This document shows positions 87 to 50,094 of a stretch of 64,000 nucleotides of DNA, one piece after another. This DNA is from Corallococcus macrosporus DSM 14697 (lineage in GTDB: Bacteria; Myxococcota; Myxococcia; Myxococcales; Myxococcaceae). A program made the position numbers and the translations under genes. Below the pieces are notes generated by a model. That model had not been told where the DNA came from and did not search any database. It saw only the letters and a list, made by a program, of their open reading frames with translations. The stretch spans positions 1 to 64,000 of the forward strand of contig NZ_CP022203.1 in the NCBI RefSeq assembly GCF_002305895.1. The letters are read 5' to 3'. Each line of letters begins with the position of its first letter. Within the stretch, counting starts at the first letter, position 1.

Positions 87-1439
87 GTGAACGCCCTCGC
101 CCAAGCCGCGACCCCCTCCCCAAGTGCTGGAATTCTCTGGGCTCGGATGCTGGATGCCATCCGCCAGGAGAAGTTCGACTACGCGCTGCGGTGGCTGGAG
201 CGGATGCGCCCGCTGGAGGTGCGTGACGGCGCCCTGGTGATGGGCGTCCCGGACCGCTTCTTCCGCGACTGGGTGGATGACCACTACCGGCCCCTGCTGG
301 ACACGCAGCTCGCGCGGATGGGGGAGGGGCTGAGCACCATCGCCTACGAAGTGGTGGAGGGCCTGGAGCCGGACCCGCACTTCCCACCCACACCCTCCGT
401 CAAGGCGAGCGCCACGCGCCCGGGCCGGCTGAACGCGCGCTTCACCTTCGACACCTTCGTGGTGGCGGACAGCAACCAGCTCCCGGCCGCGGCGGCGCAG
501 GCCGTGGCGGACAAGCCGGGCCACCACTACAACCCGCTCTACATCTACGGCGGCACGGGCCTGGGCAAGACGCACCTGCTCCAGGCCGTGGGCAACTTCA
601 TCTGGGAGCGAGACCCCACCCAGCGCGTGGTGTTCCTCTCCAGCGAGCAGTTCACCAACGAGTACGTGGAGAGCGTCCGCGAGCACCGCATGGGGGACTT
701 CCGCCGGAAGTTCCGTGAGGAGTGCGACGTGCTCCTCATCGACGACATCCAGTTCCTCGGCAAGCGTGAGGAGACGCAGAAGGAGTTCTTCTACACCTTC
801 AACACGCTCTACGAGATGAACAAGGCCATCGTCCTCACCAGCGACACGGTGCCCGCGGAGATTCCGGGCCTGGAGGACCGGCTGCGCAGCCGCTTCGCCA
901 TGGGGCTGATGACGGACATCCGCGAGCCCACCTACGAGACGCGGGTGGCCATCCTCCAGAAGAAGGCCGTGGCGGAAGGGTTGGATTTGCCGGACTCGGT
1001 GGCGCACTTCATCGCCAAGCACATCCAGAAGAACGTGCGCGAGCTGGAAGGCGCGCTGGTGAAGCTGTCCGCGGTGCACAGCCTGACGCGCCAGCCGGTG
1101 ACGGAGGACTTCGCGTCGCAGGTGCTGCGCGACATCCTCCCCGCCCAGAGCGCGGTGGACGTGGAGTCCATCCAGCGCGAGGTGGCCCGCTTCTACAAAG
1201 TCACGGTGGAGTCCTTGAAGGAGGACCGCCGTCACAAGGCCCTGGCCCACGCGCGCCAGGTGGCCATGTACCTCAGCCGCAAGCTGACCAAGAGCTCCTT
1301 CCCGGAGATCGCCGCGCGCTTCAGCAAGGACCACTCCACCGTCATCTCCGCGGTGCGCAAGGTGGAGGGCCTCCGCCTCACGGACGCCACCGTGCAGCGC
1401 GAGCTGGCGGAGCTGGAGTTGAAGCTCGGCAACCCCTGA
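87..1439 (+). CDS. dnaA: Chromosomal replication initiator DnaA
   Basis: DnaA binds DnaA boxes at oriC and, in its ATP form, melts the origin and helps load the helicase. The 450-residue protein has the full layout: N-terminal helicase-interaction domain (about 1-85), a linker, an AAA+ domain with Walker [11 protein letters not shown] near residue 155 and Walker B LLIDDIQF near 217, and a C-terminal DNA-binding domain with the DnaA signature around [15 protein letters not shown] near 415-430. The start is GTG at 87, giving a normal family length. Only 86 bases of upstream sequence are in the window. It is not followed by dnaN, recF or gyrB; the next gene is a HEAT-repeat protein 60 bases on. 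Identification is certain. Confidence 0.98.
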
Positions 1440-7460: not shown

Positions 7461-8873
7461 ATGAAGGCCCTCGTCGCCGCAGCCCTCGTGTTCAGCGGGG
7501 CGCCGGCGCTTGCCCAGACACCGACACCCCAGGAGGCGAAGCCGCTGGAGCCCGGCCGCGAGGCGCTCGCCATCCCGTATGAGAAATACGCGCTGCCCAA
7601 CGGCCTGGAGGTCATCCTCTCCGTGGACAAGAAGCTGCCGGTGGTGGCCGTCAACGTCTGGTACCACGTCGGCGCGTACCACGAGCAGCCCGGCCGCACC
7701 GGCTTCGCGCACCTGTTCGAGCACATGATGTTCCAGGGCTCGCGCAACGTGGCCGACGACGTCCACATCGCCCTGCTGGAGAAGGTGGGCGCCACCGACC
7801 TCAACGGCACCACCAGCTTCGACCGCACCAACTACTTCGAGACGGTCCCCAGCAACCACCTGGAGACGGCGCTGTGGCTGGAGAGCGACCGCATGGGCTT
7901 CTTGCTGGACGCGCTCTCGCCCCAGAAGCTGGAGACGCAGCGCGAGGTGGTGAAGAACGAGCGCCGCGAGTCCATTGAGACCGCGCCCTACGGCGCCGCC
8001 CGCGAGCAGGCGTGGCACGCGCTCTTCCCGCTGCCGCACCCGTACCACGGGGACGTCATCGGCTCGATGAAGGACCTGAACGCGGCCGACGTGGACGACG
8101 TGAAGGGCTTCTTCCGCCAGTGGTACGCGCCGTCCAACGCCACGCTGGCCATCGTCGGTGACTTCGACCTGGCGAAGACGAAGGCGCTGGTGGAGAAGTA
8201 CTTCGGCTCGCTGCCCAGCCACCCCCGGCCGCAGCGGCCGGAAGTGGCGCCCGTGAGTCTCACCGCGCCCGTGGTGCTGCGCGAGGAGGAGCGCGTGGCC
8301 CGGCTGCCGCTGCTCTCCATCCAGTGGCTCACGCCCGCGTACCTGGAGGAAGGGGACGCCACCGCGGACGTGCTGGCCACGGCGCTGTCCACCGGCAAGG
8401 CCAGCCGCCTCTACCGCCGGCTGGTGCTGGACAAGGAGCTGGCCCAGAGCGTCAGCGCCATGCAGCAGAGCCAGGGCGCGCAGTCCGTCTTCACGGTGGA
8501 CGTGGTGGCGCGGCCCGGCGTGTCCACGGACACGCTGCTCCAGGAGGTGGACGCGGTGCTGGATGAGGTCCGCCAGCAGGGCATCACCCCGGAGGAGATT
8601 GCCCGCGCCCGCACGCGCTACGACACGCGCACGCTGGCCGGCCTCCAGTCCGTCGGCGGCTTCGGCGGCAAGGCGGACGTCCTCCAGAGCTACAACCACT
8701 TCGTCGGCGAGCCCAACTACGTGGCCCAGGACCTGGCCCGCTACGAGTCGGTGACGCCCGAAGCCGTGAAGCAGTTCGCCCGGGACACGCTGCGCCCCGG
8801 CGCGCGCGTCATCCTCCACGCGGTGCCGCCCGCTCGCCGGCAGGCGCCCCTCGACTCGAAGGAGCGCCACTGA
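7461..8873 (+). CDS. M16 zinc metallopeptidase (active subunit)
   Basis: A 470-residue exported M16B (pitrilysin-type) peptidase. A signal peptide ends near ALAQ at residue 22. The inverted zinc motif HxxEH is present as HLFEH, followed by the downstream Glu region (ETQREVVKNERRE). The typical NGLEVILSVDKKLPVVAVNVWYH segment opens the domain. The frame extends upstream; ATG 7461 is favoured by the signal peptide, although GGAGG lies 13 bases away and an in-frame TTG at 7452 sits at shorter spacing. Its stop overlaps the next start (ATGA). The partner lacks the zinc site, so the two probably form the usual active/inactive pair in the periplasm. Confidence 0.92.
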   Translation: MKALVAAALVFSGAPALAQTPTPQEAKPLEPGREALAIPYEKYALPNGLEVILSVDKKLPVVAVNVWYHVGAYHEQPGRTGFAHLFEHMMFQGSRNVADDVHIALLEKVGATDLNGTTSFDRTNYFETVPSNHLETALWLESDRMGFLLDALSPQKLETQREVVKNERRESIETAPYGAAREQAWHALFPLPHPYHGDVIGSMKDLNAADVDDVKGFFRQWYAPSNATLAIVGDFDLAKTKALVEKYFGSLPSHPRPQRPEVAPVSLTAPVVLREEERVARLPLLSIQWLTPAYLEEGDATADVLATALSTGKASRLYRRLVLDKELAQSVSAMQQSQGAQSVFTVDVVARPGVSTDTLLQEVDAVLDEVRQQGITPEEIARARTRYDTRTLAGLQSVGGFGGKADVLQSYNHFVGEPNYVAQDLARYESVTPEAVKQFARDTLRPGARVILHAVPPARRQAPLDSKERH

Positions 8874-10393
8874 TGCGCCGCCTCCTCTCCGCCCTGGTCG
8901 TCACCTCGCTGGCCGCCTGCGCCAGCAACCCGAAGCCCGCGCCGGCCAGCCCGGACTCGCCCGCGCTGGGACAGAAGCCCGCCCCGGCCGAGCCCACCGC
9001 CGACGCCGAGTCCTTCCGCGCCACGCCGCCCCAGCCCGGCAAGACGCCGGACCTGGTGCTGCCCACCTTCCAGAGCGCGAAGCTGGACAACGGCCTCACC
9101 GTGCTGGTGAGCACGCGGCGGGAGCTGCCGCTGGTGTTCGCGGGCGTGGCCTTCGCCGCGGGCAGCGCGCAGGACCCCCAGGGCAAGGAAGGGCTCGCCG
9201 AGCTGACGTACCGCATGCTGCTGGAAGGCGCGGGCAAGCGGGACACGGTGCTGCTGGACAACGCCTTCGCGGACCTGGGCGTGTCCCCCGCCATGGACGT
9301 GCAGGCGGACGGCGCGCAGGTGGGCGTGCGCGTGCTGACGCGCAACCTGGACGCGGCCCTGGCCCTGCTGTCGGACGTGGTGCTGCGGCCCAGCTTCAGC
9401 CCCAAGGCCTTCGAGCGGCGCAAGAAGCAGCAGCTCGCGGACCTGGCGCGCGCCATGGGCCAGCCCGGCGTGCTGGCGCAGCTCGCGTACCTGGAGGCCG
9501 TGTTCGGACTGCAGCACCCCTACGGGCACCTGCCCGACGGCACGCCCGCGTCCGTGCAGACGCTCACGCTGGCGGACGTGAAGGACTTCTACCAGAAGCA
9601 CACCGGCCCCCAGGCGCAGGCGGTCATCCTCACGGGTGACATCAGCCTGGAGGAGGGCGTGGCCCTGGCGAAGAAGCACTTTGGCGGGGCGAAGGGCAAG
9701 GCCACGCCGCCGCCTCCGCCGCCGGCCACGCAGGCCCCCCCGCGTCAGCAGGTCTACGTGGTGCCCAAGCCGGGCCTGGACCAGACGCTGGTGCTGGTGG
9801 GCCGCGCCGGCATCGCCGCGGGCAACCCGGACGAGTACCCGCTGGAGCTGGCCACCACGGTGTTCGGTGGCTTCTTCGGCAGCCGCCTCAACATGAACCT
9901 GCGGGAGGACAAGGGCTACAGCTACGGCGCGGGCGCCAGCCTGGCGCCGCGCCTGGGCGTGGGGTCGCTCACCGCGTACAGCTCCGTGCGCCAGGACGTG
10001 ACGGGCCCGGCCCTGAAAGAGGTGATGAAGGAGCTGTCGGGCCTCACGACCAAGCCCATCTCCGCCGAGGAGCTGGAGGCCGCGCGCGAGGGCCTCATCC
10101 GCGCCTTCCCGGGCGCCTTCGAGTCGGTGGAGGGCCTGGGCGCCAGCGCCGCGGCGCTCTTCATCACCCGCCGCCCGCTGGACGAGTTCAACCGCACCGT
10201 GGAGGGCCTGCGCGACGCCAGCGCCGCGGAGGTGCAGCGCATGGCCGAGCAGTACCTGGACCCGGCCCGGATGCAGATTGTGCTCGTGGGGGACCCGGCG
10301 ACGATTCAGGAGCAGGTGACGCCGCTCGGCCTGGGCAAGCTGGTGCCCATCGAGCCGGATGAGGCTCCGTCGCCGCGCGCGGCGGCGAAGTAG
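8873..10393 (+). CDS. M16-family lipoprotein lacking the zinc site
   Basis: A 506-residue M16-like protein translationally coupled to the preceding peptidase. It has a lipoprotein signal (LAAC lipobox around residue 16) and a Pro/Ala-rich tether. The N-terminal M16 domain keeps NGLTVLVSTRRELPLVFAGV, but the place of HxxEH reads AELTYRMLLEGAG, so zinc cannot be bound in the usual way. The C-terminal domain keeps the family segment RLNMNLREDKGYSYGAGA, a substrate-binding loop. It is inferred to be the non-catalytic half of a membrane-anchored heterodimer. Confidence 0.9.
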   Translation: MRRLLSALVVTSLAACASNPKPAPASPDSPALGQKPAPAEPTADAESFRATPPQPGKTPDLVLPTFQSAKLDNGLTVLVSTRRELPLVFAGVAFAAGSAQDPQGKEGLAELTYRMLLEGAGKRDTVLLDNAFADLGVSPAMDVQADGAQVGVRVLTRNLDAALALLSDVVLRPSFSPKAFERRKKQQLADLARAMGQPGVLAQLAYLEAVFGLQHPYGHLPDGTPASVQTLTLADVKDFYQKHTGPQAQAVILTGDISLEEGVALAKKHFGGAKGKATPPPPPPATQAPPRQQVYVVPKPGLDQTLVLVGRAGIAAGNPDEYPLELATTVFGGFFGSRLNMNLREDKGYSYGAGASLAPRLGVGSLTAYSSVRQDVTGPALKEVMKELSGLTTKPISAEELEAAREGLIRAFPGAFESVEGLGASAAALFITRRPLDEFNRTVEGLRDASAAEVQRMAEQYLDPARMQIVLVGDPATIQEQVTPLGLGKLVPIEPDEAPSPRAAAK

Positions 10394-10409
10394 CGCGCTG
10401 CAGTCACTG

Positions 10410-10451
10410 CCGGGCCGTGGTGGCGAGTCACGCTCGCATGCCACGGCCCGG
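10410..10451 (+). terminator. Strong hairpin terminator after M16 operon
   Basis: An 11-bp perfect stem, CCGGGCCGTGG at 10410-10420 with CCACGGCCCGG at 10441-10451, contains an inner GCGAG/CTCGC stem and is followed by TTTCATT. It lies 16 bases after the operon stop. Confidence 0.75.
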
Positions 10452-10596
10452 TTTCATTGGGGGCGTGGGCCTCCGCCGGCCCGCCCCGCATGCGGCCTCT
10501 CCTGCACGCCGGGGCCCGGTCCGTTCACCGCGAGGCCAGACGCCGTGGCCCGCCCCGGAGCGGACCTCCACGCGCCGTCTCCTCGCGCCGCGCGGC

Positions 10597-10905
10597 TCAG
10601 CGGTTGCGCGCCTCGTCGTCCTCGTCGGAGACCTGGCGCTCCTCGGCCTTCTCGCGGCCCCGGCGCTCGCGCTCCAGCTCGTCCGCCTCGTCGATGGGGC
10701 TGCGGATGTCCGGGACGTAGCCGCCCACCTCGGTGTCACTGTCCAGGGCGAACTTCTGCTCGCGCGTGTCGCGGATGGAGTCCGCGGCGTACAGCGGCAG
10801 GGTGTCATCGGCTTCCAGTCCCCGCTCCACGCGGTCCGGCGCATAAGGGGGCTTCTTCGCCGCCTCCTTGCCTCCCGTGTACGGGTCGTACTTCCTGTTG
10901 GGCAT
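10597..10905 (-). CDS. Small charged hypothetical protein
   Basis: A 102-residue hydrophilic protein starting PNRKYDPYTGGKEAAK, with no signal peptide or membrane segment. The C-terminal third is a strongly charged Glu/Arg helix (DEADELERERRGREKAEERQ). ATG 10905 is preceded by GAGGAG at 8 bases. I do not recognise the family. It could be a small nucleic-acid or stress-associated protein, but nothing proves this. Confidence 0.65.
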   Translation of the reverse strand: MPNRKYDPYTGGKEAAKKPPYAPDRVERGLEADDTLPLYAADSIRDTREQKFALDSDTEVGGYVPDIRSPIDEADELERERRGREKAEERQVSDEDDEARNR

Positions 10906-11081
10906 GGTGCGCTCCTCGTCGAAGTGGGTACCGCTCCGAAGCTGAATGTCGGAGCGGGACGCCCGCGCACCAAGGTCCCCCCGCAGGGCCGGGGGCACGC
11001 CCGGCCGCCCGGCTCACGAGGAGGGCGGGGCCGCTCGAAGGCATCCCCAAGTTGCCCACAGGGGGGCGACGCGCCGCCGCG

Positions 11082-12086
11082 TCACTTCCCGAGGAAGTCG
11101 ATCAACGCCGCGTGGAACTTCTCCGGCGCCTCGAAGTGGGGGATGTGGCCCACGCCGGGCAGCTCCACCAGCGTCGCGTTGGGGATGGCCTTCGCCACCT
11201 TCTTCCCCAACCGTGGGTACTGCCCCAGCGTCGCGGCGTCCGCGGCGGGCACCCGGCCCCGGCCGATGTACGTCCGGTCCTCCTGGCCCAGGTACAGCAG
11301 CGTGCGCGGCTTCACGAAGGGGAACTCGTGCACCACGGGCTGCTCGTAGATCATGGTCGCCGTGGCGGCGGACACCCACGCGAGCCGGGGGTACTCGGCG
11401 CTCTGGAGCTGGCGGCCGGCGACCTTCACCCAGGTGTCGTACTCCGGCTTCCACTTCACGTAGTACGTCTGGTGGTACTTGCGGGTGCCCTCCTCGGTGG
11501 CCTTGAGCTGGTGCTTGTAGTCGGCCTCGGTGGAGACCCAGGGCACCTTCTCCCGGTAGTCCTCCAGGCCAATGGGGTTCTCCAGCACCAGCTTGGAGAC
11601 GGTGTCCGGGTACATGAGCGTGAAGCGCGTGGCGAGCATGCCGCCCATGGAGTGGCCCACGACGGCCGTCTGCTTCACCCCCAGCGAGTCCAGGAGCTGC
11701 TTCGTCAGCGAGGCCAGCGTGTGGAAGCTGTAATGGATGTCCGGCTTGGACGACTTGCCGAAGCCGAGCTGGTCGGGCACGACGACGCGGTACCCCGCGC
11801 CGGTGAGGGCGCGGATGGTGCCCTCCCAGTACGCGCCGAAGAAGTTCTTTCCGTGCAGCAGCACCACGGTGCGCCCGTTGGCCCGGCCCGTGGGCTTCAC
11901 GTCCATGTAGGCCATGCGCACGTCCTGGCCCTCGACGGTGAGGGGCAGGTACTGCACGGGGAAGGGGTACGCGTAGCCCTCCAGGGCGATGCCGAGCGGC
12001 TCGGCGGGGCGGGGCTCCTGCGCGAGCACGGGCGAGCTGGCCAGGAGCAGCGCGGTGAGGGCCAGGGCGGGCTTGCGGACGGGCAT
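11082..12086 (-). CDS. Secreted alpha/beta hydrolase
   Basis: A 334-residue hydrolase with a signal peptide ending at VLAQ near residue 23. It shows the alpha/beta-hydrolase pattern: oxyanion region VVLLHGKNFFG, nucleophile elbow GHSMGG (Ser near 160), a cap region, an acid-containing strand region around YLGQEDRTYIGRG, and the catalytic His in ELPGVGHIPHFEAPE near 315. The start ATG 12086 has GAGGAG 8 bases upstream. The substrate is unknown; haloperoxidase, epoxide-hydrolase or esterase activity are all possible. Confidence 0.9.
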   Translation of the reverse strand: MPVRKPALALTALLLASSPVLAQEPRPAEPLGIALEGYAYPFPVQYLPLTVEGQDVRMAYMDVKPTGRANGRTVVLLHGKNFFGAYWEGTIRALTGAGYRVVVPDQLGFGKSSKPDIHYSFHTLASLTKQLLDSLGVKQTAVVGHSMGGMLATRFTLMYPDTVSKLVLENPIGLEDYREKVPWVSTEADYKHQLKATEEGTRKYHQTYYVKWKPEYDTWVKVAGRQLQSAEYPRLAWVSAATATMIYEQPVVHEFPFVKPRTLLYLGQEDRTYIGRGRVPAADAATLGQYPRLGKKVAKAIPNATLVELPGVGHIPHFEAPEKFHAALIDFLGK

Positions 12087-15260: not shown

Positions 15261-16892
15261 TCAGCGCCGAGCCCCGTCCAGCATGGAGACGGGGCCCTTG
15301 CCACGGCGCTTCACGGTGCCGTCGTCGGAGATGCGCGCGCCCGTCTCCGGGAAGTCGTCCTGGGTGAGCTTGCGCATCAGCTTGAGGACGGCGCCCTTCG
15401 GGTCCGGCACGGCGATGCCCCGGTCCACCTGCTTCGTGGGGAGGATGCGGCCGGCCGTGAAGTCGCCGTCGCGGTCCAGTTCCACCTCCAGCACCATGCC
15501 CAGGCCCTGGGGACCGCGCAGGTTGAAGCGGCCGTAGGTGGCGAAGTTCCCCAGCGAGTAGGCGATGAGCCGGCCCTTGTAGAACTCCATGCCGCGCACC
15601 ACGTGCGGCCCGTGGCCGATGACCAGGTGCGCGCCCGCGTCCACCACCGCGCGCGAGAAGGCGCGCAAGTCGCCCCGGTCCTCGCCGTAGAACTTCTCCC
15701 GGCCCCTGGGCACGTGCAGCGCCTTGCTGCCCTCCGCGCCGCCGTGGAACGACACGATGACGATGTCGTTCTCGGCCGCGGCGATGCGCACCAGCCCCGT
15801 CGCCGTGGTCAGGTTGTTGAGGTGGTTGCAGGCCGGCGAGGTGTGGAACGCCACCATGCCGATGCGCAGCCCGTTGCGCTCCACCGTGGCGATGGTGCCC
15901 GGCGCGCCGCTCCACGCGATGCCCAGCGTGTCCAGCGTGGACTCCGTGGTGCGGCGGCACGCCTCGCCGAAGTCACCCGAGTGGTTGTTCGCCGTGGACG
16001 CCAGGTCCACCCCGGCCTCCTTCAAATACTGGCCGTACTCGGTGGGCGAGCGGAACGCGTAGCAGTTCTTCGACGAGCGGCACTTCTTCGTCTCGCCGGT
16101 GTCGCACAGCGGCCCCTCCAGGTTGATGAAGGTGAGGTCCGCGTCCTCCAGCAGCGGGCGCACGCCGGCAATCACGCTGCCGGCGCCGTCCGGAGGCAGG
16201 TGGCCTTCGGGCACGGTGGTGCCCAGCATGACGTCCCCCACGGCGCGGAGGCGCACCTTCGCGTCGGCCGGCGGGGGAGGGCGGTCGATGATCCGCGGCC
16301 CCTCGGCCAGCCTCGCCTGGAGCATGGCCTGCCCACGGGACTGGGCCAGCGCGCCCTCCAGGTCCGGGTGGTCCGGCTGGAGCTTCTGCACCTCGGTCCA
16401 CTGCGCGTGGGCCTCCACCCACTGGTTCTCCAGGGAGTGCGCCCAGCCCAGCTCCCACCGGCAGTCCACGCGCGAGGGCGCGGCCTCCACACAGGCGGAG
16501 AGCTGGGTGATGGCCGTGGGGAAGTCCTTCGCCTTGAGGGCCTCCATGCCCTGGGCGTAGCTGACGTCCGGGTCGGGCAGCGGGACGCGGGGGGCGGCGG
16601 CCTCGTGCAGGGCCAGGGCCGCGGCGCGCAGGGCGGCGGCGCCGGCCTCCGCGGCGGCGCGGCCCAGGTCCAGCACCGCGCCAGCCTCACCCGCGCGGGG
16701 GTAGGCGTTCAGGTCGGTGATGACGGTCTCCGGCGCGGGCGCCGGGCGCTGCGTCCCCGGGCCCGGGTTGGCGCTCGGGCCCGCGTCGGGCGCTTGCGAG
16801 GGAGCGACGTGCTGCGCGGGGGCGGGCTCACGCGCCGGAGCGGCATCCGGCGTGGACGCGAGCGCCATCAGGAGAAGGACGGACGAGGGCAT
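15261..16892 (-). CDS. CapA-family (PGA_cap) metallophosphatase-like protein with TPR region
   Basis: A protein of about 543 residues. It has an N-terminal signal-like segment, a Pro/Ala-rich spacer, and a TPR-like helical region about 120-220 (YAQGMEALKAKDFPTAITQLS). From about 235 it carries a CapA domain with the conserved segments GDVMLGT, FINLEGPLCDTGE, STANNHSGDFGE, VSFHGGAEG, GHGPHVVRGMEFY and YSLGNFA. CapA homologues act in poly-gamma-glutamate capsule synthesis. No other cap genes are near, so an envelope role is the safest statement. ATG 16892 is used; the ribosome site is weak. Confidence 0.88.
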   Translation of the reverse strand: MPSSVLLLMALASTPDAAPAREPAPAQHVAPSQAPDAGPSANPGPGTQRPAPAPETVITDLNAYPRAGEAGAVLDLGRAAAEAGAAALRAAALALHEAAAPRVPLPDPDVSYAQGMEALKAKDFPTAITQLSACVEAAPSRVDCRWELGWAHSLENQWVEAHAQWTEVQKLQPDHPDLEGALAQSRGQAMLQARLAEGPRIIDRPPPPADAKVRLRAVGDVMLGTTVPEGHLPPDGAGSVIAGVRPLLEDADLTFINLEGPLCDTGETKKCRSSKNCYAFRSPTEYGQYLKEAGVDLASTANNHSGDFGEACRRTTESTLDTLGIAWSGAPGTIATVERNGLRIGMVAFHTSPACNHLNNLTTATGLVRIAAAENDIVIVSFHGGAEGSKALHVPRGREKFYGEDRGDLRAFSRAVVDAGAHLVIGHGPHVVRGMEFYKGRLIAYSLGNFATYGRFNLRGPQGLGMVLEVELDRDGDFTAGRILPTKQVDRGIAVPDPKGAVLKLMRKLTQDDFPETGARISDDGTVKRRGKGPVSMLDGARR

Positions 16893-19565: not shown

Positions 19566-19907
19566 ATGCCGCGACAGAACCTGACGAGCGACACGGCGCC
19601 TCTGGCGGTGGTCCGGGCGGTGGAGCGCCTGGGCCAGAACATCGCGCGGGCGCGGATCCGACGCGGGTTGCGGCAGGTGGATCTCGCGAAGAAGACGGGG
19701 CTGGCGCTTGGAACGCTCAAGCGAATCGAAGAGGGCAGTCCCACAACGGGACTCAGCGCCTACTTCACCGTCCTCTGGGCCCTGGGCCTGGAGCAGGAGT
19801 TTGACAACCTCGCCGCTCCGGAGCGAGACGAGGAGGGCAAGACGCTCGAGTTGGCACGACAGCCGCAGCGGGTGCGTCTGAAGAAAGGCCTGGATGCGGA
19901 CTTCTGA
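19566..19907 (+). CDS. hipB: HipB-type XRE antitoxin/repressor
   Basis: A 113-residue protein with an HTH_XRE domain about 22-80 (LGQNIARARIRRGLRQVDLAKKTGLALGTLKRIEEG). The C-terminal tail would contact HipA. It overlaps the hipA start by 14 bases, so the two are coupled. Expected role: bind and inhibit the HipA kinase, and repress the operon at the palindrome just upstream. There is almost no leader between palindrome and ATG, so the transcript may be nearly leaderless. Confidence 0.9.
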   Translation: MPRQNLTSDTAPLAVVRAVERLGQNIARARIRRGLRQVDLAKKTGLALGTLKRIEEGSPTTGLSAYFTVLWALGLEQEFDNLAAPERDEEGKTLELARQPQRVRLKKGLDADF

Positions 19908-21144
19908 AGACCCAACCTGTTTTGTGTACGTCCAACTGCCGGAATCCATGGAGGTCGTCACCTGCGGACGCTTCCAACAACAAGGCGAGGTCGGACGCTT
20001 CGTCTACGGCCGGAGCTATCTGGCCAACCCGCGCGCCGTCGAACTGGAGAAGTTCGAATTGCCGCTCCGCCCGGGCACCTTCGAGACAGCCCGACTCGGC
20101 GGCATCTTCGGCTCCCTGCGCGACGCCTCTCCGGATGCGTGGGGCCGCAGAGTCATTGAGCGGCAGTTGGAACGTGTGGCCCTGAGCGAGGTTGATTTCC
20201 TCCTCAACTCTCCCGAGGACCGCGCGGGGGCGCTGTCATTCGGCACCAGTCCCACGCCGCCCGCGCCCGTCCATCGGTTCAACAAGGTCCTGCGGCTGGA
20301 CCTGTTGCTTGAAGAGGCAAGGCGCGTCGAACAAGAGCTGCCGCTCTCCGGCGTCCAGGTCAGTGACCTGGTGAACCCCGGCAGTTCCATGGGCGGCGCC
20401 CGGCCCAAGAACGTCGTCGAGGATGAAGAAGGCCTGTGGGTCGCCAAGTTCCCGGCCCGAGGCGACCGTTGGAACAACGCGGCGGTCGAAGGGGGCATGC
20501 TGAGGCTTGCCCGCGAATGCGGCTTGAAGGCCGCCGTGAGCAAGCGCACGCACGTCGCGGGACAGGACGTATTGCTGGTCCGGCGATTCGACAGGCAGCG
20601 GGTCGATGGCGGCTATCACCGGCACCGGATGGTCAGTGCCCTGACCGTCCTGCGTGCCGATGAGCATCCCCAGGACCGCTCGAAGTGGTCCTACATCCTG
20701 CTGGCGGATGAGCTGAAGCGGTGGGTCGGCGACCCGGACGAGGACCTGCGCGAGCTGTTCTCGCGGATGGTGTTCAACGCCCTCATCTCGAACGTCGACG
20801 ACCATCCGAGGAACCACGCACTCATCGCGGCAGGGACGGCGTGGAACCTCTCTCCGGCCTATGACTTGACGCCCTCGCCGCAGGCCAGCCTGGAGCGTCA
20901 CCTGGCCATGGAAGTCGGCAGCGCGCAGCACCGGCGTGCCACCCGGCTGAATCTCTTGAGTGAGTGCGGCCGCTTCCGGCTTTCGAAAGAGGCCGCCAAT
21001 CACCTCATCGACACGATGAAGGCCACCGTGACAGCCCGCTGGCGTGGTGCCATCAAGGACTGCGGTGGCACCGACGCGGACGTGACGGCGGTCGAGCGGG
21101 CGTTCGACTCCGAGGGCTTCGAGTACACGCATTACAGCGTGTAG
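19894..21144 (+). CDS. hipA: HipA-family serine/threonine kinase toxin
   Basis: A 416-residue HipA kinase. The N-terminal HipA_N (couple) domain runs about 1-110 (GIFGSLRDASPDAWGRRVIE). The kinase core has the P-loop NPGSSMGGARPKN with the autophosphorylatable Ser, the catalytic loop NVDDHPRNH, and the metal site YDLTPS. E. coli HipA phosphorylates GltX and halts translation; the target here is unknown. The last few codons and the stop fall in a sequence copied from the 3' end of the esterase gene, so the C-terminus (HYSV) may be a recombination product. Confidence 0.92.
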   Translation: MRTSEDPTCFVYVQLPESMEVVTCGRFQQQGEVGRFVYGRSYLANPRAVELEKFELPLRPGTFETARLGGIFGSLRDASPDAWGRRVIERQLERVALSEVDFLLNSPEDRAGALSFGTSPTPPAPVHRFNKVLRLDLLLEEARRVEQELPLSGVQVSDLVNPGSSMGGARPKNVVEDEEGLWVAKFPARGDRWNNAAVEGGMLRLARECGLKAAVSKRTHVAGQDVLLVRRFDRQRVDGGYHRHRMVSALTVLRADEHPQDRSKWSYILLADELKRWVGDPDEDLRELFSRMVFNALISNVDDHPRNHALIAAGTAWNLSPAYDLTPSPQASLERHLAMEVGSAQHRRATRLNLLSECGRFRLSKEAANHLIDTMKATVTARWRGAIKDCGGTDADVTAVERAFDSEGFEYTHYSV

Positions 21145-21220
21145 ACGACCGTCAGCACCGCGTTCGCCCCATCCCGGATGAACAGGTGGCCGCGAAGTGG
21201 GCCAGCGGCACGGCGTCCAG
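21133..21220 (+). repeat. Scar of two fused gene fragments
   Basis: Bases 21133-21187 match 22731-22785 (3' end of the esterase gene) with two mismatches. Bases 21185-21220 match 19265-19300 (inside the methyltransferase gene) with one mismatch. Both keep the orientation of their source. On the minus strand the first piece still encodes RDGANAVLTVVY and a stop, as in the esterase. The pieces come from opposite sides of the hipBA/yjjJ block, so they record a recombination that placed this block here. Confidence 0.85.
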
Positions 21221-21341
21221 GTCGAGGCGAGCCTGCTTGACTGAGAAGTGCCCGCCCGGGACGTTCGGCTCCATCCTTCGGCCCCGAAATCACCTCACCA
21301 GCGTGCATTGACGGATAAAAACTCATTTAAATTCAGTAGTT

Positions 21342-21359
21342 TATACGGATTATACCGAT
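21342..21359. promoter_or_regulatory. Tandem 9-bp repeat in AT-rich yjjJ upstream region
   Basis: TATACGGAT and TATACCGAT lie head to tail (one mismatch) in an unusually AT-rich stretch, about 21310-21390, before yjjJ. The product has an N-terminal HTH, so this could be its own binding site. TTGACG at about 21309 is a possible -35 element. The role is inferred from position only. Confidence 0.4.
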
Positions 21360-21396
21360 CAAAAATCACTTCACGGATCCTTTCAGGAATCTGTTC

Positions 21397-22707
21397 ATGG
21401 CCACCTTGGAACAGTTGCTCGCGGTGCTCGGGCGTCAGGTCGAGGTGAAGGGGGGCGAGCTGGCGACCCAGCTCCGGGTCTCACGCCCGACGGTGTCGCG
21501 GCTGCTCGCCTCGGCGGGTCCGAGCGTGTGCCGGATGGGGCAGGGGCCCGCCACGCGCTATGCGCGCGCCCGCTCCATCGCCGCCCTGGGAGAGCAGATA
21601 CCGCTGTACCGCGTCGGCGAGACGGGCCGTCCCTCCGAAGCAGGCATCCTGTACCCGCTCTGGAACGGGGGCTGCTGGGTCGCGCAAGCAGAGGGGGTGG
21701 GGGAGCGGTTCGCCGGGCTCCCGCCCTTCGCCGCCGACATGAGCCCCCAGGGCTATCTGGGCCGAGGCTTCGCGAGTCGTCACCCGGAACTGGGCCTTCC
21801 TCCCCGCATCACGGACTGGACGGAGGACCATCAGCTCATCGCGCTGGCGCTCCGAGGCGATGACTGCGTGGGAGATCGCATCATCGGCGCGGCCTCCCTG
21901 GACCGTTTTCTGGCCAGCCCGCTTCGGCCAGCCACCGAGGCCCAATACCCGGAGCTCGCCCGCTCATCGATGTCGAGCGAAGCAGGCTCCTCCGCGGGAG
22001 GCGAACAGCCCAAGTTCACGGCGTACACGGAAGGGCGCCACGTCCTGGTGAAGTTCGCGGCGAACGATGACGGCGCCGCCGCTCAGCGATGGAGAGAACT
22101 CCTCGTGTGCGAAGGCCTGGCACTCGAAGCAGTCCGCGCCGCTGGCATTCCCGCCGCCGCCACGCGCTCCCTCCGCGTGGAGGGCTACCAGTTCCTCGAG
22201 GTCGAACGCTTCGACCGCATCGGAGAGCGAGGCCGCAAGGCGCTGCTCTCCCTCAAGGCCATCGACAACGAGTACCTCGGCCATGAAGGCAAGGGGAGCA
22301 CCTGGACCAGCGCGGCCCACTACCTCCAGCAGAGCCAGTCCATCAGCGACGAGGACGCCCGGCGCATCCGCTGGCTGGACACCTTCGGGCAGCTCACCGG
22401 CAACACCGACCGGCACTTCGGCAACCTCTCCTTCTTCGAGGAGGGGCCGAAGCGGTTCAAGCTCGCCCCCGCCTACGACATGCTCCCGATGATGTTCGCC
22501 CCCGTGGGCACCACCATCGTCGAGCGCGCCTTCGAGCCCCGGCCTCCCACGTCGGAGACGCTCGACGTCTGGTCCGATGCCGCGCGGCACGCACTCGCCT
22601 ACTGGACCCGGCTTCTGGAGGCACAGGAACTCAGCCAGGCGTTCCGAGCCCGCTGCGCGCAATGCCGGGACTCGCTCGCCGCGCTGATGCAGCGGACGCC
22701 GGTCTGA
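21397..22707 (+). CDS. yjjJ: HipA-like kinase with N-terminal HTH (YjjJ type)
   Basis: A 436-residue single-chain relative of HipA. The N-terminus (about 1-60; GELATQLRVSRPTVSRLLASAG) is a winged-helix/HTH, so antitoxin-like DNA binding may be built in. The kinase part has P-loop SSAGGEQPKF, catalytic loop GNTDRHFGNL and metal site YDMLPMMF. E. coli YjjJ (443 aa) has this layout and is a HipA-type toxin without a separate HipB. The gene follows hipBA by about 250 bases in the same direction but has its own AT-rich upstream region. It is convergent with the esterase. Confidence 0.88.
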   Translation: MATLEQLLAVLGRQVEVKGGELATQLRVSRPTVSRLLASAGPSVCRMGQGPATRYARARSIAALGEQIPLYRVGETGRPSEAGILYPLWNGGCWVAQAEGVGERFAGLPPFAADMSPQGYLGRGFASRHPELGLPPRITDWTEDHQLIALALRGDDCVGDRIIGAASLDRFLASPLRPATEAQYPELARSSMSSEAGSSAGGEQPKFTAYTEGRHVLVKFAANDDGAAAQRWRELLVCEGLALEAVRAAGIPAAATRSLRVEGYQFLEVERFDRIGERGRKALLSLKAIDNEYLGHEGKGSTWTSAAHYLQQSQSISDEDARRIRWLDTFGQLTGNTDRHFGNLSFFEEGPKRFKLAPAYDMLPMMFAPVGTTIVERAFEPRPPTSETLDVWSDAARHALAYWTRLLEAQELSQAFRARCAQCRDSLAALMQRTPV

Positions 22708-25892: not shown

Positions 25893-27617
25893 TCAGCGCT
25901 CGGGGATTTCCCCCAGCTTCAGCTTGAAGCGGGTCGTCTCCCCGGCGGTGATGGGCACCATCAGCAAGCGCTTCTTGCCGTCCGGCCCCTTGAGCGTCAG
26001 CTCGTGGTTCCCCACGGGCAGGGCCAGGTTGAACATGGGCGTGCGGCCCAGCCGCTTCGCCCCCCGGAAGACCTCCGCCTCCGGCAGCACCACCAGGGTC
26101 AGCTTGCCCCGGCCCCTCGCCGCGGGGCGGGCGCTCGCCGTCTCCTTGGGAGGGGCGTCCGCCGCTTCCTCGCCGCCCACGGCCGCCCCCAGGGCCCTCG
26201 CGGGCGCCTCCGGGGTGCCGGCGTCGGGGGTGGGCGTGTCATAGCCCGGCACCGGGTAGACGGGCAGGTTCGGGTCATGGCGGGGGAGGGTGCGCAGCGC
26301 GCTGGCCGCCTCTTCCTCCACGGTTTCATTCAGCACCTTCGACAGGTGCCAGGCGGCATAGCCACCGCCCACCAGGATGCCCAGCAGCACCAGCCCCCAC
26401 ACCACGTTGGAGGACCTGCTCTCCGGTGCCGGCGGGGTGTCCGGGGCGGCCGCCCTCCGGGGCGCTGGCGCCGCGGGCACCTTGCGCGAGGGCTTGCGCG
26501 GCAGGCCCGACACCCCGTTCGACGGCGTGGGGAGGTCCTTGCGCTCGGGGAGGTAGGGCCCGTCGTCGCCGCGCAAGGCGCGCTTCGCGGACGCCAGGAT
26601 GACGCCGTTGGTGGTGCCGTCCGCGGACTCCAGCATGACGCGCGTGGCGGACATGCGCTCGGCGAACAGCTCCTGCATCAGCGCGGCCCGGTCCGTGGCG
26701 TCCAGCAGCAGCCTGCCCGCCGCCGCTTCAATCGCCTTGGCCATGTCCCGGCCGGTGGCGAAGCGCTTCTCGCGGCTGCGCTCCAGCGCCCGCATCACCA
26801 CCTTGGACACCTCTTCGGGCACGTGCGGGGCCACCGTGGACGGCCAGGGCACGGGCGCGTCGAGAATCTTCATCATCTCATCGCGCTCGTTCCTGCCCGC
26901 GAACAGGCGCGCGCCGGTGATGAGCTCGTGCATCATCACCCCGACGGAGAACAAGTCACTGCGGCCGTCCAGCGCCTCGCCCCGCACCTGCTCCGGGGAC
27001 ATGTACCCGGTGGTGCCCTTCACCGTGCCGACGTTGGTGCGCTCCAGGCTGTCCTTCGCCTTGGCGATGCCGAAGTCCAGCAGCTTCACCACGCCGTCGT
27101 ACGTCACCATGATGTTCTTCTGGGCGACGTCTCGGTGGATGACGGGGCTGGGCGCCCCGGAGGGCGCCGTATAGGTGTGCGCGTAGTGCAGCGCCATGCA
27201 GACGTCGCGCGCCACCGACAGCGTGAAGCCCAGCGAGAGCTGGTCATGGCGCTTCAGGCACGCGCCCGTAATCTGGTTCAGGTTCTGCCCGGCGATGAAC
27301 TCCATGGCCAGGTAGAGCCCGTCATCCTCGCGCCCCAAATCGAACACCTGGGCGATGTTCGGGTGGTTGAAGGCCGCGGTGATGCGCGCCTCGTCCAGGA
27401 ACATGCGCTCGAACTGCGCGTTGTCCCGCGCGTCCGGCAGCACCCGCTTGATGACCACGTACTTGCGGAAGCCACCCGGCCCGGAGGTGAACCCCAGGAA
27501 CAGCTCCGCCATGCCGCCCACGGAGAGCTGCGTGACGACCTCATACTTCCCGATGCGCTCGCCCCGATAGAAGTCGATGGGGAAACCCTCCGCCGGCACC
27601 CCACTGTCGGGGCGCAT
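25893..27617 (-). CDS. Transmembrane Ser/Thr protein kinase with PEGA domain
   Basis: A protein of about 574 residues. The kinase domain runs about 24-290: glycine loop LSVGGMAELFLG, VVIKR lysine, catalytic VIHRDVAQKNIM, LLDFGIAK and GYMSPEQV. A Pro/Ala linker follows, then one membrane helix (VVWGLVLLGILVGGGYAAW) near 405-425, and a C-terminal extracytoplasmic PEGA domain about 500-574 (VLPEAEVFRGAKRLGRTP). HRDVAQKN replaces the usual HRDLKPEN but the HRD Asp is present. ATG 27617 is used; the frame runs to TTG 27644 with no better ribosome site. Confidence 0.9.
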   Translation of the reverse strand: MRPDSGVPAEGFPIDFYRGERIGKYEVVTQLSVGGMAELFLGFTSGPGGFRKYVVIKRVLPDARDNAQFERMFLDEARITAAFNHPNIAQVFDLGREDDGLYLAMEFIAGQNLNQITGACLKRHDQLSLGFTLSVARDVCMALHYAHTYTAPSGAPSPVIHRDVAQKNIMVTYDGVVKLLDFGIAKAKDSLERTNVGTVKGTTGYMSPEQVRGEALDGRSDLFSVGVMMHELITGARLFAGRNERDEMMKILDAPVPWPSTVAPHVPEEVSKVVMRALERSREKRFATGRDMAKAIEAAAGRLLLDATDRAALMQELFAERMSATRVMLESADGTTNGVILASAKRALRGDDGPYLPERKDLPTPSNGVSGLPRKPSRKVPAAPAPRRAAAPDTPPAPESRSSNVVWGLVLLGILVGGGYAAWHLSKVLNETVEEEAASALRTLPRHDPNLPVYPVPGYDTPTPDAGTPEAPARALGAAVGGEEAADAPPKETASARPAARGRGKLTLVVLPEAEVFRGAKRLGRTPMFNLALPVGNHELTLKGPDGKKRLLMVPITAGETTRFKLKLGEIPER

Positions 27618-27699
27618 CCCGCGCCGGACGATAACAGGCGACAACAGGCCTGTGCGGGCCGGACGTGAGGTGAGGACAGGCCGTCACCCGGGGTGCCTG

Positions 27700-27964
27700 C
27701 CGCGTCCACCGGGAAGCTGTGGATGGCCTGTGGACAGCGGGGGAGCGGCTGTGGAGAAACCCCCGTGTGGATCAACACCTGTGGGTTCCCGGGGATAACC
27801 GTCACCTTACCCACATGTAGCAGACTCCAAATTCGTGAGTGTTCCCGCGAGCTTGCTGACTTGTCCCCAAGTCCCGGTCCCCTACTGCCACTACCAATAG
27901 ATCAATACCTCTATGAACCTTTAGAAGAAGCAGTGGGCGCTGGGGACGAAGTGCCTGTGGAATC
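27700..27964. other. Candidate replication origin (DnaA-box cluster)
   Basis: The gap 27618-27964 (347 bases) holds no gene but many 9-mers close to the DnaA box TTATCCACA/TTGTCCACA. On the minus strand: TGTGGATGG 27718, TGTGGACAG 27729, TGTGGAGAA 27750, TGTGGATCA 27766, TGTGGGTTC 27780, CGGGGATAA 27790. On the plus strand: TTACCCACA 27807 and TTGTCCCCA 27861. Weaker ones lie at 27941 and 27956. An AT-rich stretch (27886-27924), rare in this genome, lies beside them and could be the unwinding element. Clustered boxes plus an AT-rich tract is the classic oriC layout. dnaA is 27 kb away on this chromosome. Confidence 0.6.
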
Positions 27965-28261
27965 TCAAGGCAGCGCCAGGCGCAGCCGTTCGAGCAACGC
28001 GGGCAGCCGGGTCAGCAGCTCGCGGTCCATGTCCTCCAGGGCGCCGCGCAGGGCCGCCAGGTCGTCCGGGGCGCGCTCCGCGTTCACCATGCGCTGCAGG
28101 ACCCGCAGGCGCTGGTTGCGCTGCACCAGGCTGCCCAGGACGTCCTCCAGCTCCTCGGCGAGGACCTCATCCAGGCGCAGGTCGTGGCCGATCAGCTCCC
28201 GGAGCTGCTCCACCAGGTACGTGAGGTCCCAGGATTCCGCGTATCCGGCACGGCGCGACAT
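27965..28261 (-). CDS. Small helical hypothetical protein
   Basis: A 98-residue Leu/Arg/Glu-rich protein (LRELIGHDLRLDEVLAEELEDVLGSLVQRNQRLRVLQR), predicted all-helical and possibly coiled-coil. No known family recognised. It lies between the candidate origin and another 98-residue gene read in the same direction, 30 bases apart, so the two may form an operon. Its stop touches the last DnaA-box-like 9-mer. Confidence 0.65.
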   Translation of the reverse strand: MSRRAGYAESWDLTYLVEQLRELIGHDLRLDEVLAEELEDVLGSLVQRNQRLRVLQRMVNAERAPDDLAALRGALEDMDRELLTRLPALLERLRLALP

Positions 28262-28291
28262 CTCATCCTTGTCCCCGGCGGGCCGCCGGGC

Positions 28292-46509: not shown

Positions 46510-47276
46510 TCCTCCGGGTGGAGCTGGACGAGCGAGGGCAGCTCCGCCGCCCTCGCCCGCAGCCGCGGCTTGGGGCGGATGGCCACCGGCACGCGCGAGG
46601 CCGCCAGCAACTCCAAATCAAACACGTTGTCCCCGAAGGCGGCATAGAGCGGCTGGGACGTGCGCGCGCGCAGGCAGTGCACCTTCCCGGCCGCGTAGGG
46701 GATGGGCTCGACGATGCGGGGCAGCACCGTCCCGTCCTCGGTGTGCGGCGTGCAGGCCAGCACGTTCGCCGGCTCCATTCCGAGCGCGCGCACCGCGGCC
46801 TCCACCACGGCCAGCGGCGAGGCGCTGACCACGTAGCAGGGGATGCCCTGGCCCCGCGCCCACTCGACGACGCGGCGGCTCTCGGGGTGGATGCGCTGCT
46901 TCACCTCGCGCCGGGCCACCACGTCCGCCGCGAAGTCGCGCACCGCGTCCACGCGCCAGCCGGCGAAGAGCCACGCCACCATCTCGTAGATGTCCTTCTC
47001 CGGAATCCGCCCCGCCTCGAAGGCGGCGAAGAGCTGGTGCGCCAGCTCGCGCGCGGGCTGGCCCCGGGCGAAGCCATGCGCGGCGGCCAGCCCCTCCAGG
47101 GCCTCCTGCGCCTGGGGGCGGATGCCGCCGTGCTCCAGCAGGGCGAGGAACACGTCATCCCCCACGTCCCCGCTCCACAGCGTGCCGTCCCCGTCGAAGG
47201 CCAGCACGCCGCCGGGGGCGCGCTCGGCCTCCAGGCGGATGCGCTCCAGCGTCTGCTCCACACGCTCCATCCTCAT
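46506..47276 (-). CDS. HAD-superfamily phosphatase (SerB-like)
   Basis: A 256-residue HAD hydrolase. Motif I FDGDGTLW near residue 28, a long helical C1 cap (about 40-115), motif II VVSASP near 150, and motif III/IV in the stretch GKVHCLRA ... YAAFGDNVFDLELL. This order matches the HAD-IB (phosphoserine phosphatase-like) group. The substrate is unknown. It is the last gene after the ABC importer, 58 bases from it, and may be in the same transcript. Confidence 0.85.
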   Translation of the reverse strand: MRMERVEQTLERIRLEAERAPGGVLAFDGDGTLWSGDVGDDVFLALLEHGGIRPQAQEALEGLAAAHGFARGQPARELAHQLFAAFEAGRIPEKDIYEMVAWLFAGWRVDAVRDFAADVVARREVKQRIHPESRRVVEWARGQGIPCYVVSASPLAVVEAAVRALGMEPANVLACTPHTEDGTVLPRIVEPIPYAAGKVHCLRARTSQPLYAAFGDNVFDLELLAASRVPVAIRPKPRLRARAAELPSLVQLHPED

Positions 47277-47334
47277 GGGCGCGCATCCTCTCCCGGCCCG
47301 GCGTCCACGTCACCCCGGGCGTGTCGAGTCGTCG

Positions 47335-48342
47335 TCACTTCGCGGCGCCTGCTCGCACCTCGTCCAACAGGCGCAGGTCCACCAGGCCGTCGAGGTTGGC
47401 GTCGGTGAGGAAGCCCAGGCTCTTCGCGTGCTCGGCCGCGGTGGCCAGCGCCTGGGGCACCGGGTCCAGGCTGGGCTCCAGCCGGGAGAAGGCCTGCTGG
47501 AGGATGGCGGGCGGCAGCGGCTTCTTCGTGATGTGTCCGAAGGCGGCGTTGGCCGCGGTGGTGAAGCCAGCAGGGTCCTGCTCCCAGCGCCCGGTGAGCT
47601 GCACGTGCGCCCGCAGCAGCGCGGCCACGCGTGGCCGCTGCGTCTCCAGGACCTTGCGCGTCGTCACCAGCACCGTGGTGGGGAACCGGCCGCCGGGCCA
47701 CAGGTCCTTCTCGTTGACGAGGATGCGGCCCTTGCCCTCGGCCACCAGCCGCGCGCCCCAGGGCTCCGGCACCCAGGCGCCCTCGATGCCGCCGCGCAGG
47801 AACTGCCCCAGGATGTCCGGGTTGCTGAGCGGGAAGATTCGCACGTCCCCCGTGCCGTCCAGGTTCGTCGTCAGGCCCTGCTGCTTCAGCCAGTAGCGCA
47901 GGGCGATGTCCTGCGTGTTGCCGAGCTGCGGGGACGCCAGCTTCTTGCCCTTGAGCTCCGCGGGCGTCTTCACCGTGCGCACCACCAGCACCGCGCCGTC
48001 GTTCACCGCGCCGGCGATGATGCGCAGCTCGCGCCCGGCCTTGAGGAAGGTGTTGATGGCCGGTCCGCTGCCCACGTAGGACACGTCCAGCGAGCCCGCC
48101 ACCAGCGCCTCCATGGCGGCCGGGCCGGCGTTGAACTGCAGCACCTCCAGCTTTCCGACGCCGGGCTGCGAGGCGAAGGTGCCCTCCTCGTTGCCCACCA
48201 GGGCCTGGGCATGGGTGATGTTGGGGAAGAAGCCCAGGCGCAGCGGGGCGTCCGGGCCGCGCTCGGACTCGCGCTTGCAACCGGCGCCGAGCACCGCCAG
48301 TCCGGCGACCACCACGGGCAACAGGGAGCGGAAGGCACGCAT
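47335..48342 (-). CDS. ABC importer substrate-binding lipoprotein (nitrate/sulfonate/taurine type)
   Basis: A 335-residue periplasmic binding lipoprotein (lipobox LGAGC near 22). It opens LRLGFFPNITHAQALVGNEEGTF and shows LDVSYVGSGPAINTFLKAG and the SsuA/TauA/NrtA pattern GKKLASPQLGNTQDIALRYWL. This family binds alkanesulfonates, taurine, nitrate or thiamine precursors. The ligand here is not clear. It is third in the ATPase-permease-binding protein order on the minus strand. Confidence 0.9.
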   Translation of the reverse strand: MRAFRSLLPVVVAGLAVLGAGCKRESERGPDAPLRLGFFPNITHAQALVGNEEGTFASQPGVGKLEVLQFNAGPAAMEALVAGSLDVSYVGSGPAINTFLKAGRELRIIAGAVNDGAVLVVRTVKTPAELKGKKLASPQLGNTQDIALRYWLKQQGLTTNLDGTGDVRIFPLSNPDILGQFLRGGIEGAWVPEPWGARLVAEGKGRILVNEKDLWPGGRFPTTVLVTTRKVLETQRPRVAALLRAHVQLTGRWEQDPAGFTTAANAAFGHITKKPLPPAILQQAFSRLEPSLDPVPQALATAAEHAKSLGFLTDANLDGLVDLRLLDEVRAGAAK

Positions 48343-48423
48343 GGGCGCTGAAGGTGTGACGCGGCGGCGGGATTTCAACGCCCGCGCGCACGCAAGCGTC
48401 GGGCGCCGCACGGCCGGAAAGCC

Positions 48424-49185
48424 TCACGTCGTGGCCGTCAGCCCCCACCGCCGCCGCAGCCGCGCCTCCACCGTCTGGAAGAGGACACGGTCCACCGTGG
48501 TGCCGATGATGACGATGGCCACCATGACGGCCATGACCTGGGGCACGTCCATCAGCTCGCGGCCCACGGTGAGGAGCTGGCCCAGGCCGCCGGAGACGAA
48601 GAGCAGCTCGCCGGCCAGCAGCGCGCGCCAGGCGAAGCTCCACCCCAGCTTCAGGCCGGTGACGATGCCGGGCAGGGCCGCGGGCAGCAGCACGCCGAAG
48701 TGGAAGCGCAGGCCGCGCACGCCCAGCGTGCTGGCCACGCGGGTGAGCTGCGGGTCCACGCCGTTGACGCTGTCCTCCGTCGCGATGGCGATGCCCAGCA
48801 CGCTGCCCATGACGACGACGAAGAGGATGGCGCCGTCCGTCAGCCCGAACCACAGCAGGGCCAGCGGCAGCCAGCAGATGGAGGGCAGCGCCTGCAGCCC
48901 CATCACCACCGGCTTCACCGCGTTGCGGAAGAAGGGGATGCGGGAAATCAGCAGGCCCAGGGGGACGCCCAGGGCCACGGACATCAGGTAGGCGCGCCCC
49001 AGCCGCCCCAGCGAGCGCCCCGCCGCGCCCGCCAGGCGCCCATCGGCCACCATGGCGGCCAGGCTGTGCGCCACCGTCATCGGTCCGGGCAGCAGGTGCG
49101 GAGACCAGAGGCCCAGCCGGGCGACCAGCTCCCACAGGCCCAGCAGCAACGCCACCACCAGCAGCTTCTGCGCAGCGTGTTTCAT
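48424..49185 (-). CDS. ABC importer permease (SsuC/TauC type)
   Basis: A 253-residue inner-membrane protein with about six helices and the EAA-type loop VASTLGVRGLRFHFGVLLPAALPGIVTGLKLGWSFAWRALLAGEL. It belongs to the binding-protein-dependent permeases of nitrate/sulfonate/taurine importers. It sits between the ATPase (9 bases upstream) and the binding protein (82 bases downstream). Confidence 0.92.
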   Translation of the reverse strand: MKHAAQKLLVVALLLGLWELVARLGLWSPHLLPGPMTVAHSLAAMVADGRLAGAAGRSLGRLGRAYLMSVALGVPLGLLISRIPFFRNAVKPVVMGLQALPSICWLPLALLWFGLTDGAILFVVVMGSVLGIAIATEDSVNGVDPQLTRVASTLGVRGLRFHFGVLLPAALPGIVTGLKLGWSFAWRALLAGELLFVSGGLGQLLTVGRELMDVPQVMAVMVAIVIIGTTVDRVLFQTVEARLRRRWGLTATT

Positions 49186-49194
49186 CGCGCACCT

Positions 49195-50094
49195 CTAGGG
49201 GCCGGGCAGCACCTGCGGACGGAGCACGGGCCGCGCGGGGACTCGGGCGGGCGCCGCGGGGAGCGACGTCGTATGCGCGCGGCCCTCCACCTCCCGCAGC
49301 AGCCCGCCGACGTGCCGCACCATCTCGTTGAGCGCCGCGTCCTCCGGCCGGCGCGGCATGGGCAGGTGGACCTCCAAATCCTTCACCACGCGGCCCGGCC
49401 GGGGCGCCATCAGCACCACGCGCGTGCCCAGCATCAGCGCCTCATGGACGTCGTGGGTGACGAACACCACCGTCTTGCCCGTGCGCACCCAGATGGATTG
49501 GAGCAGCTCCTGCATGTGGATGCGCGTCTGCGCGTCCAGCGAGCCGAAGGGCTCGTCCATGAGCAGCACGGTCGGGTCCACCGCCAGCGCGCGGGCGAGC
49601 GAGGCCCGCATCTTCATGCCCCCGGAGAGCTGGTGGGGCAGCGCGTCCTCGAAGCCGCCCAACTGCACGCGGTGGATATAGGTGTCCGCCCGCTCGCGGC
49701 GCTCGGCGCGCGGCACGCCCCGGGCCGCCAGCGCGAAGGTGATGTTGCCGCGCACGGTGAGCCATGGAAACAGCGCCGCCTCCTGGAACATCAGCAGCCG
49801 GTCCGGCCCCGGCCCGTGGATGGGCTGCCGGTCGATGGACACCGAGCCCCCCGTGGGCACCACGTGCCCGGCCAGCGCGTAGAGCAGCGTGGACTTGCCA
49901 CAGCCAGACGGGCCCAGCAGGCAGACGAATTCGCCCGAGCGGACGTTGAGGTCCACGTTCTGCAAGGCGACCACCTTGTTGGCGTACTCGTGGTCCAACC
50001 GGGCGACGCTGATTTTGGCGCGGTCCGCACCCACCTGCGCCGGCTGGAGCAGACGCAGGGAACTTCTCCAACGGCCAAGGAGGGCGCGCAGCAT
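49195..50094 (-). CDS. ABC importer ATPase (SsuB/TauB type)
   Basis: A protein of about 299 residues. Walker [13 protein letters not shown]-loop [16 protein letters not shown] signature [15 protein letters not shown], Walker [13 protein letters not shown] and switch His [11 protein letters not shown] are all present. The MFQE and DVHEA variants are typical of the nitrate/sulfonate/taurine group. It powers the importer with the two following genes. ATG 50094 is used; the frame opens at GTG 50112. Confidence 0.92.

Follow-up and report, generated by a model that had tools for sequence, protein, structure and literature searches.

The window analysed here (the first 64 kb of a single-contig genome of 8,973,512 bases; GC 70.6%) raises the question of where the replication of this chromosome starts: a dense cluster of DnaA boxes occupies an intergenic gap of 320 bases between a Ser/Thr protein kinase gene and a 98-aa open reading frame, and dnaA (87..1439, plus strand; PF00308, 7.9e-64) is located 26 kb to the left. 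The sequence-only reading had taken this cluster for a candidate oriC, a proposal now supported by GC skew and by conservation among relatives, and the segment at 27.7-27.93 kb, as judged from its sequence, very probably constitutes the predicted chromosomal replication origin. It combines the traits of DnaA-type origins, namely dense boxes, an adjacent AT-rich tract, a skew switch, an intergenic position, about one copy per genome and conservation.

A motif search of the window identified 7 boxes within 2 mismatches of TTATCCACA inside 152 bp, and allowing 3 mismatches raised the number to 8, with 6 sharing one orientation, which agrees with the at least eight boxes in about 150 bases, six of them co-oriented, that had been read from the letters. 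The co-oriented boxes, all on the minus strand, are R1 (CCATCCACA, 27718..27726, 2 mismatches), R2 (CTGTCCACA, 27729..27737, 2 mismatches, 11 bp from R1), R3 (TTCTCCACA, 27750..27758, 1 mismatch), R4 (TGATCCACA, 27766..27774, 1 mismatch), R5 (GAACCCACA, 27780..27788, 3 mismatches) and R6 (TTATCCCCG, 27790..27798, 2 mismatches); on the plus strand they are followed by R7 (TTACCCACA, then TGTAGCA, 27807..27822) and R8 (TTGTCCCCA, 27861..27869), and no box of the array is a perfect match to TTATCCACA. The significance of the array derives from the clustering of the boxes and not from the plain one-mismatch count, given that the one-mismatch search for TTATCCACA over the whole window yielded 4 occurrences vs 1.67 expected, a non-significant excess. 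Conversely, none of 300 first-order Markov simulations of the window yielded more than 3 boxes, vs 7 per 150 bp in the real sequence, so that the density had rightly been called very unlikely by chance, and a scan of 200 kb around dnaA found elsewhere never more than 3 boxes per 200 bp.

Box R8 faces an AT-rich tract (27886..27924; 61.5% AT vs 29.4% for the window), which is probably the DNA-unwinding element, and 12 bp after R8 a DnaA-trio-like repeat begins (CTACTGCCACTACCAATA, 27882..27899, plus strand). This tract had been described as rare; its richness is real but modest, as 0.15% of the 39-base windows are equally rich and it is surpassed by tracts at 19.5 kb and at 21.3 kb. The oriC core (27717..27917, plus strand), the conserved element that served as the source of profile R1, comprises the array, the spacer in which box R8 lies, the trio-like repeat and the start of the AT-rich tract. 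To its left, the kinase gene noted in the earlier reading (25893..27644, minus strand; PF00069, 8.3e-36) is transcribed away from the origin; to its right, the 98-aa frame (27965..28261, minus strand) has no Pfam match.

Of the 96 family genomes, 65 contain the array region, nearly without exception in a single copy, and these include all 26 other genomes of its genus; a search with profile R1 recovered the element in 89 of 147 genomes of the class. The core itself scores 154.6 bits against this profile, whose alignment includes the window's own oriC sequence, and Myxococcus genomes carry one match each. In an alignment of 30 family members (A1), the box cores TGTGG or CCACA are invariant or nearly so, their spacing is constant over about 200 bases, and the mean pairwise identity is 0.79-0.91 in the boxes vs 0.60 outside them; TGTGG of R1 and GTGGA of R3 are invariant in 30/30 sequences, and R5 keeps its TGTGG core. 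The exception is R4, whose conservation is limited to Myxococcus (identity of 0.88 within the genus vs 0.37 family-wide). Box R7 and the ensuing TGTAGCA are invariant in the compared Myxococcus sequences (1.00) and reach 0.90 and 0.91 over the family, and TTACCCACATGTAGCA shows no variation across the Myxococcus alignment. Among the groups compared, g1 is Myxococcus and g5 is Citreicoccus, and we take g3 to be Archangium, g6 Corallococcus, g7 Cystobacter and g8 Stigmatella. The oriC boxes of g3 and g7 are about as conserved as those elsewhere, and in these two groups R8 mostly reads TTTTCCACA, which is nearer to the canonical box than TTGTCCCCA. The persistence of the 9-mers between species, proposed beforehand as a check, thus extends to genera. 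Elsewhere in the window, a reverse match to the oriC profile at 16368-16469 is weak (12.3 bits) and probably due to chance.

A second check set beforehand was the GC skew, a minimum elsewhere having been named as grounds for rejecting the site. Over -100 to +100 kb the cumulative skew declines to about 27.5 kb and then rises, and its minimum for -40 to +64 kb falls at 28,275, beside the box cluster; likewise, 20-kb skew samples were negative in 9/9 cases on one arm and positive in 11/11 on the other. Correction for gene orientation, in which genes were called by GC3 and a change point was fitted to third-position skew, placed the optimum at 23.7-25.4 kb and left -3 to 32 kb as the permitted range; this genome alone thus allows both oriC and dnaA, the gidB-gidA gap being 5 log units worse. 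Since the skew of this genome is compatible with dnaA, the working origin might instead adjoin that gene, on the rpmH-dnaA side, and the cluster would then act in the manner of datA in E. coli, as a reservoir of DnaA or a timing element; in favour of this explanation there are a few boxes upstream of dnaA (-79, +12), and several genera of the family carry an array about 300 bp upstream of the gene. However, in this genome just two weak boxes are found there, the AT-rich tract and its facing box belong to the element at 27.7 kb, and genome G036 separates the two sites clearly: its raw skew reaches the minimum at 66 bp from the element, with dnaA 147 kb and the gidB-gidA gap 252 kb off, and its corrected fit admits 5,821-5,828 kb only, with both dnaA and gidB-gidA down about 10 log units. 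We therefore regard an origin beside dnaA as very unlikely, and the element at 27.7-27.93 kb as the predicted oriC.

The usual companions of an origin are distant from this element. The gene order is parB (-52 kb), gidB-gidA (-39 kb), rpmH (-16 kb), dnaA (0), oriC (27.7 kb) and dnaN (299.7 kb), which places oriC 26 kb from dnaA, 272 kb from dnaN and 44 kb from rpmH, as the earlier reading had stated in general terms. In outgroup genomes, by contrast, the element is matched between dnaA and dnaN: in G138, with all three on the minus strand, dnaA is at 10212-11420, the match at 9765-9875 and dnaN at 8623-9726; in G130 they follow at 47102-48415, 48434-48634 and 48654-49778; and G115 and G137 display the same arrangement. 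These four outgroup matches are weak (17-21 bits), with an identical place each time. Within the family, G081 presents the element match (35 bits) and dnaN directly after dnaA. The distance from the element to dnaA amounts to 1.8 kb in G044, 2.8 kb in G045, 60-105 kb in g4 and about 17-147 kb in Myxococcus and near genera, the complete family genomes giving about 20-147 kb. In the genomes with both on one contig, the element invariably follows dnaA on its 3' side, the relative strand being constant.

Because this element separates dnaA from dnaN in the outgroups, sequence comparison indicates that an ancestral dnaA-oriC-dnaN block has come apart in Myxococcus (by 26 kb and 272 kb) without any change of order or orientation. 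In the simplest reading, DNA would have been gained on both sides of the origin, towards dnaA as well as towards dnaN, the origin staying put and thereby becoming solitary. Hence the neighbourhood, which had been called unusual, is indeed so, but as a consequence of the separation of the block and not of a new origin. The dnaA-oriC interval contains ordinary genes (peptidases, hydrolases and a HipA pair), the latter being two nearby HipA-like kinase genes at 19894-22704 (PF07804) of toxin-antitoxin-like appearance. As for dnaN, it stands alone at G000:C1:299709-300812 in this genome, and in g6 it is found inverted on the other arm, the pattern expected from a symmetric inversion about the origin. 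In addition, an array of 5-6 DnaA boxes similar to the left half of oriC lies about 300 bp upstream of dnaA in g4, g13, g25 and g26 (L165-L171), which suggests an ancestral bipartite origin. The outgroup arrangement also bears on the kinase gene: the array immediately precedes the kinase start (27644) and could be merely a DnaA-regulated promoter region of that gene, an explanation to which we give practically no credence, as eight near-evenly spaced boxes plus a skew switch are more than a promoter needs, and the element occupies the dnaA-dnaN interval in the outgroups.

A second cluster deserves consideration besides the predicted oriC. The gidB-gidA gap (L011:676-780; G000:C1 about 8,934,188-8,934,290) holds three DnaA boxes in this genome, TTATCCACA, TTTCCCACA and TTGTCCACA, with CCACA cores retained in 23/23 aligned sequences, and it is the second-best box cluster in 5/5 genomes scanned. 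In g3, furthermore, the skew minimum is near this gap: at 472,900 in G002 (gidAB at 469,258), at 13,482,602 in G003 (gidAB at 13,478,977) and within about 1.5 kb of gidAB in G007, in all three about 100-135 kb away from the oriC orthologue, where the skew switch seen here and in G036 is missing. The corrected fit places the g3 oriC orthologue 16-24 log units down, and the direction-corrected gidAB-oriC interval is rightward-leading in g3 (0.074, 0.101 and 0.085, with bootstrap ranges that stay above zero); in G000 and G036 it is slightly negative, with ranges that reach zero. Corrected skew was also fitted to G018 (g6) and G034 (g7), with no clear placement of the switch.

These observations prompt the explanation that the working origin would be the gidB-gidA gap at -39 kb in the present genome as well, the boxes there being conserved in all genera compared and the g3 switch lying 1-5 kb from the gap. 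We consider it highly improbable: the gap is 5 log units below the optimum here and 10 in G036, measures about 100 bp, and is modest in AT (0.45-0.52 over 60 bp vs 0.58 for oriC). Moreover, one of its boxes overlaps the gidB start (GTGGATAAC), and part of the conservation of the gap may therefore be coding. For this genome, the element at 27.7 kb remains the preferred origin.

With regard to the g3 shift itself, no newly arisen box cluster was found when the skew minimum of g3 was searched for one. An inversion of the interval was considered as the cause of the shift and rejected, since g1, g3 and g8 share the parB-gidAB-dnaA-oriC order and the relative strands. In the DnaA tree, g3 and g7 together are the sister of g1, g6 and g8. 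The main start may have moved in that clade, replication may begin at both sites, or the skew there may have another cause. One tentative proposal, to which we assign a low probability as the g3 data come from three genomes of one lineage and the g7 skew is ambiguous, is that Myxococcaceae carry two conserved clusters and differ in the main start, which would be oriC in Myxococcus and g8 and the gidB-gidA neighbourhood in g3.

The origin itself is already predicted for Myxococcus. For M. hansupus it was published as 8,613,829-8,614,077, on the basis of similarity to DoriC, with dnaA at 8,645,240-8,646,592 (PMC4765838), and DoriC lists predicted origins for M. fulvus HW-1 (ORI94030396) and M. 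xanthus DK1622 (ORI92210206). Our array region matches the M. hansupus genome (G060:C1) at 8,613,829-8,614,154, and dnaA at 8,645,243-8,646,592; the array match starts at the published coordinate, so the site was known as a prediction, and by sequence match the element described here is its orthologue; in M. hansupus, dnaA is about 31 kb away. Unlike the present account, the published one is a short similarity prediction without anatomy, comparison of genera or explanation of the distant dnaA (PMC4765838). In M. xanthus, the origin has been set at position 1 from skew (PMC3778016). According to PMC8538405 (citing Gao and Zhang 2008), Sorangium cellulosum is another myxobacterium with a predicted oriC split from dnaA, the distance to that gene being nearly 2 Mb, and it adjoins dnaN; it differs from the window's oriC, which is split from dnaN too and far closer to dnaA. 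New relative to the earlier predictions are the separation of the dnaA-oriC-dnaN block, the placement by skew in G036, and the second cluster at gidB-gidA with the skew conflict in g3. The oriC of E. coli is a DnaA origin located away from dnaA, with a box layout different from that of the array in the window. It sits at gidA-mioC (PMC10225481).

The anatomy of the element suggests how it may work. DnaA would fill the six co-oriented boxes (27718-27798) plus the two opposite ones (27807 and 27861), would be handed from the last box, R8, onto the trio-like repeat, and would melt the adjoining AT-rich tract (27882-27924), where helicase would be loaded for both directions. The arrangement resembles the basal unwinding system (BUS) of B. 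subtilis and C. difficile in its box facing an AT tract, its 12 bp spacer and its CTACTG... repeat, the letters of which and their place relative to the boxes are as in C. difficile, where the DnaA-trios read 5'-CACCTACTACTATTACTACTATGA-3' (PMC7561715). R8 (TTGTCCCCA) lies at 12 bp from the trios, within the 0-16 bp and 2 mismatches allowed for a facing box. It differs, however, in that a single facing box replaces the tandem pair and only two consecutive trios are present, short of the rule of at least three consecutive NAN trios (PMC8287927). Among the 30 aligned relatives, 19 show at least three trios, some at other offsets, and the mean longest run of 2.8 is barely higher than the 2.4 of shuffled sequences; the outgroup locus L173 has box, spacer and a fuller repeat (CTACTGCTTCTACTACTTAA). 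Given the two trios in the window and a family mean near that of the shuffle, we do not file the element as a BUS and regard the trio step as the least certain of the proposed mechanism.

Taken together, these results would locate the chromosome start of a bacterium that serves as a model of social behaviour with greater precision than the position 1 assigned from skew (PMC3778016), and provide an example of a dnaA-oriC-dnaN block that appears to have been pulled apart with the origin staying in place. The skew conflict in g3 further raises a testable question, namely whether the main start moves between two standing DnaA-box clusters; if true, members of one family would differ in which of two potential DnaA origins they use, or would use both, while the interval between the two stays unrearranged, a situation that would be unusual for bacteria.
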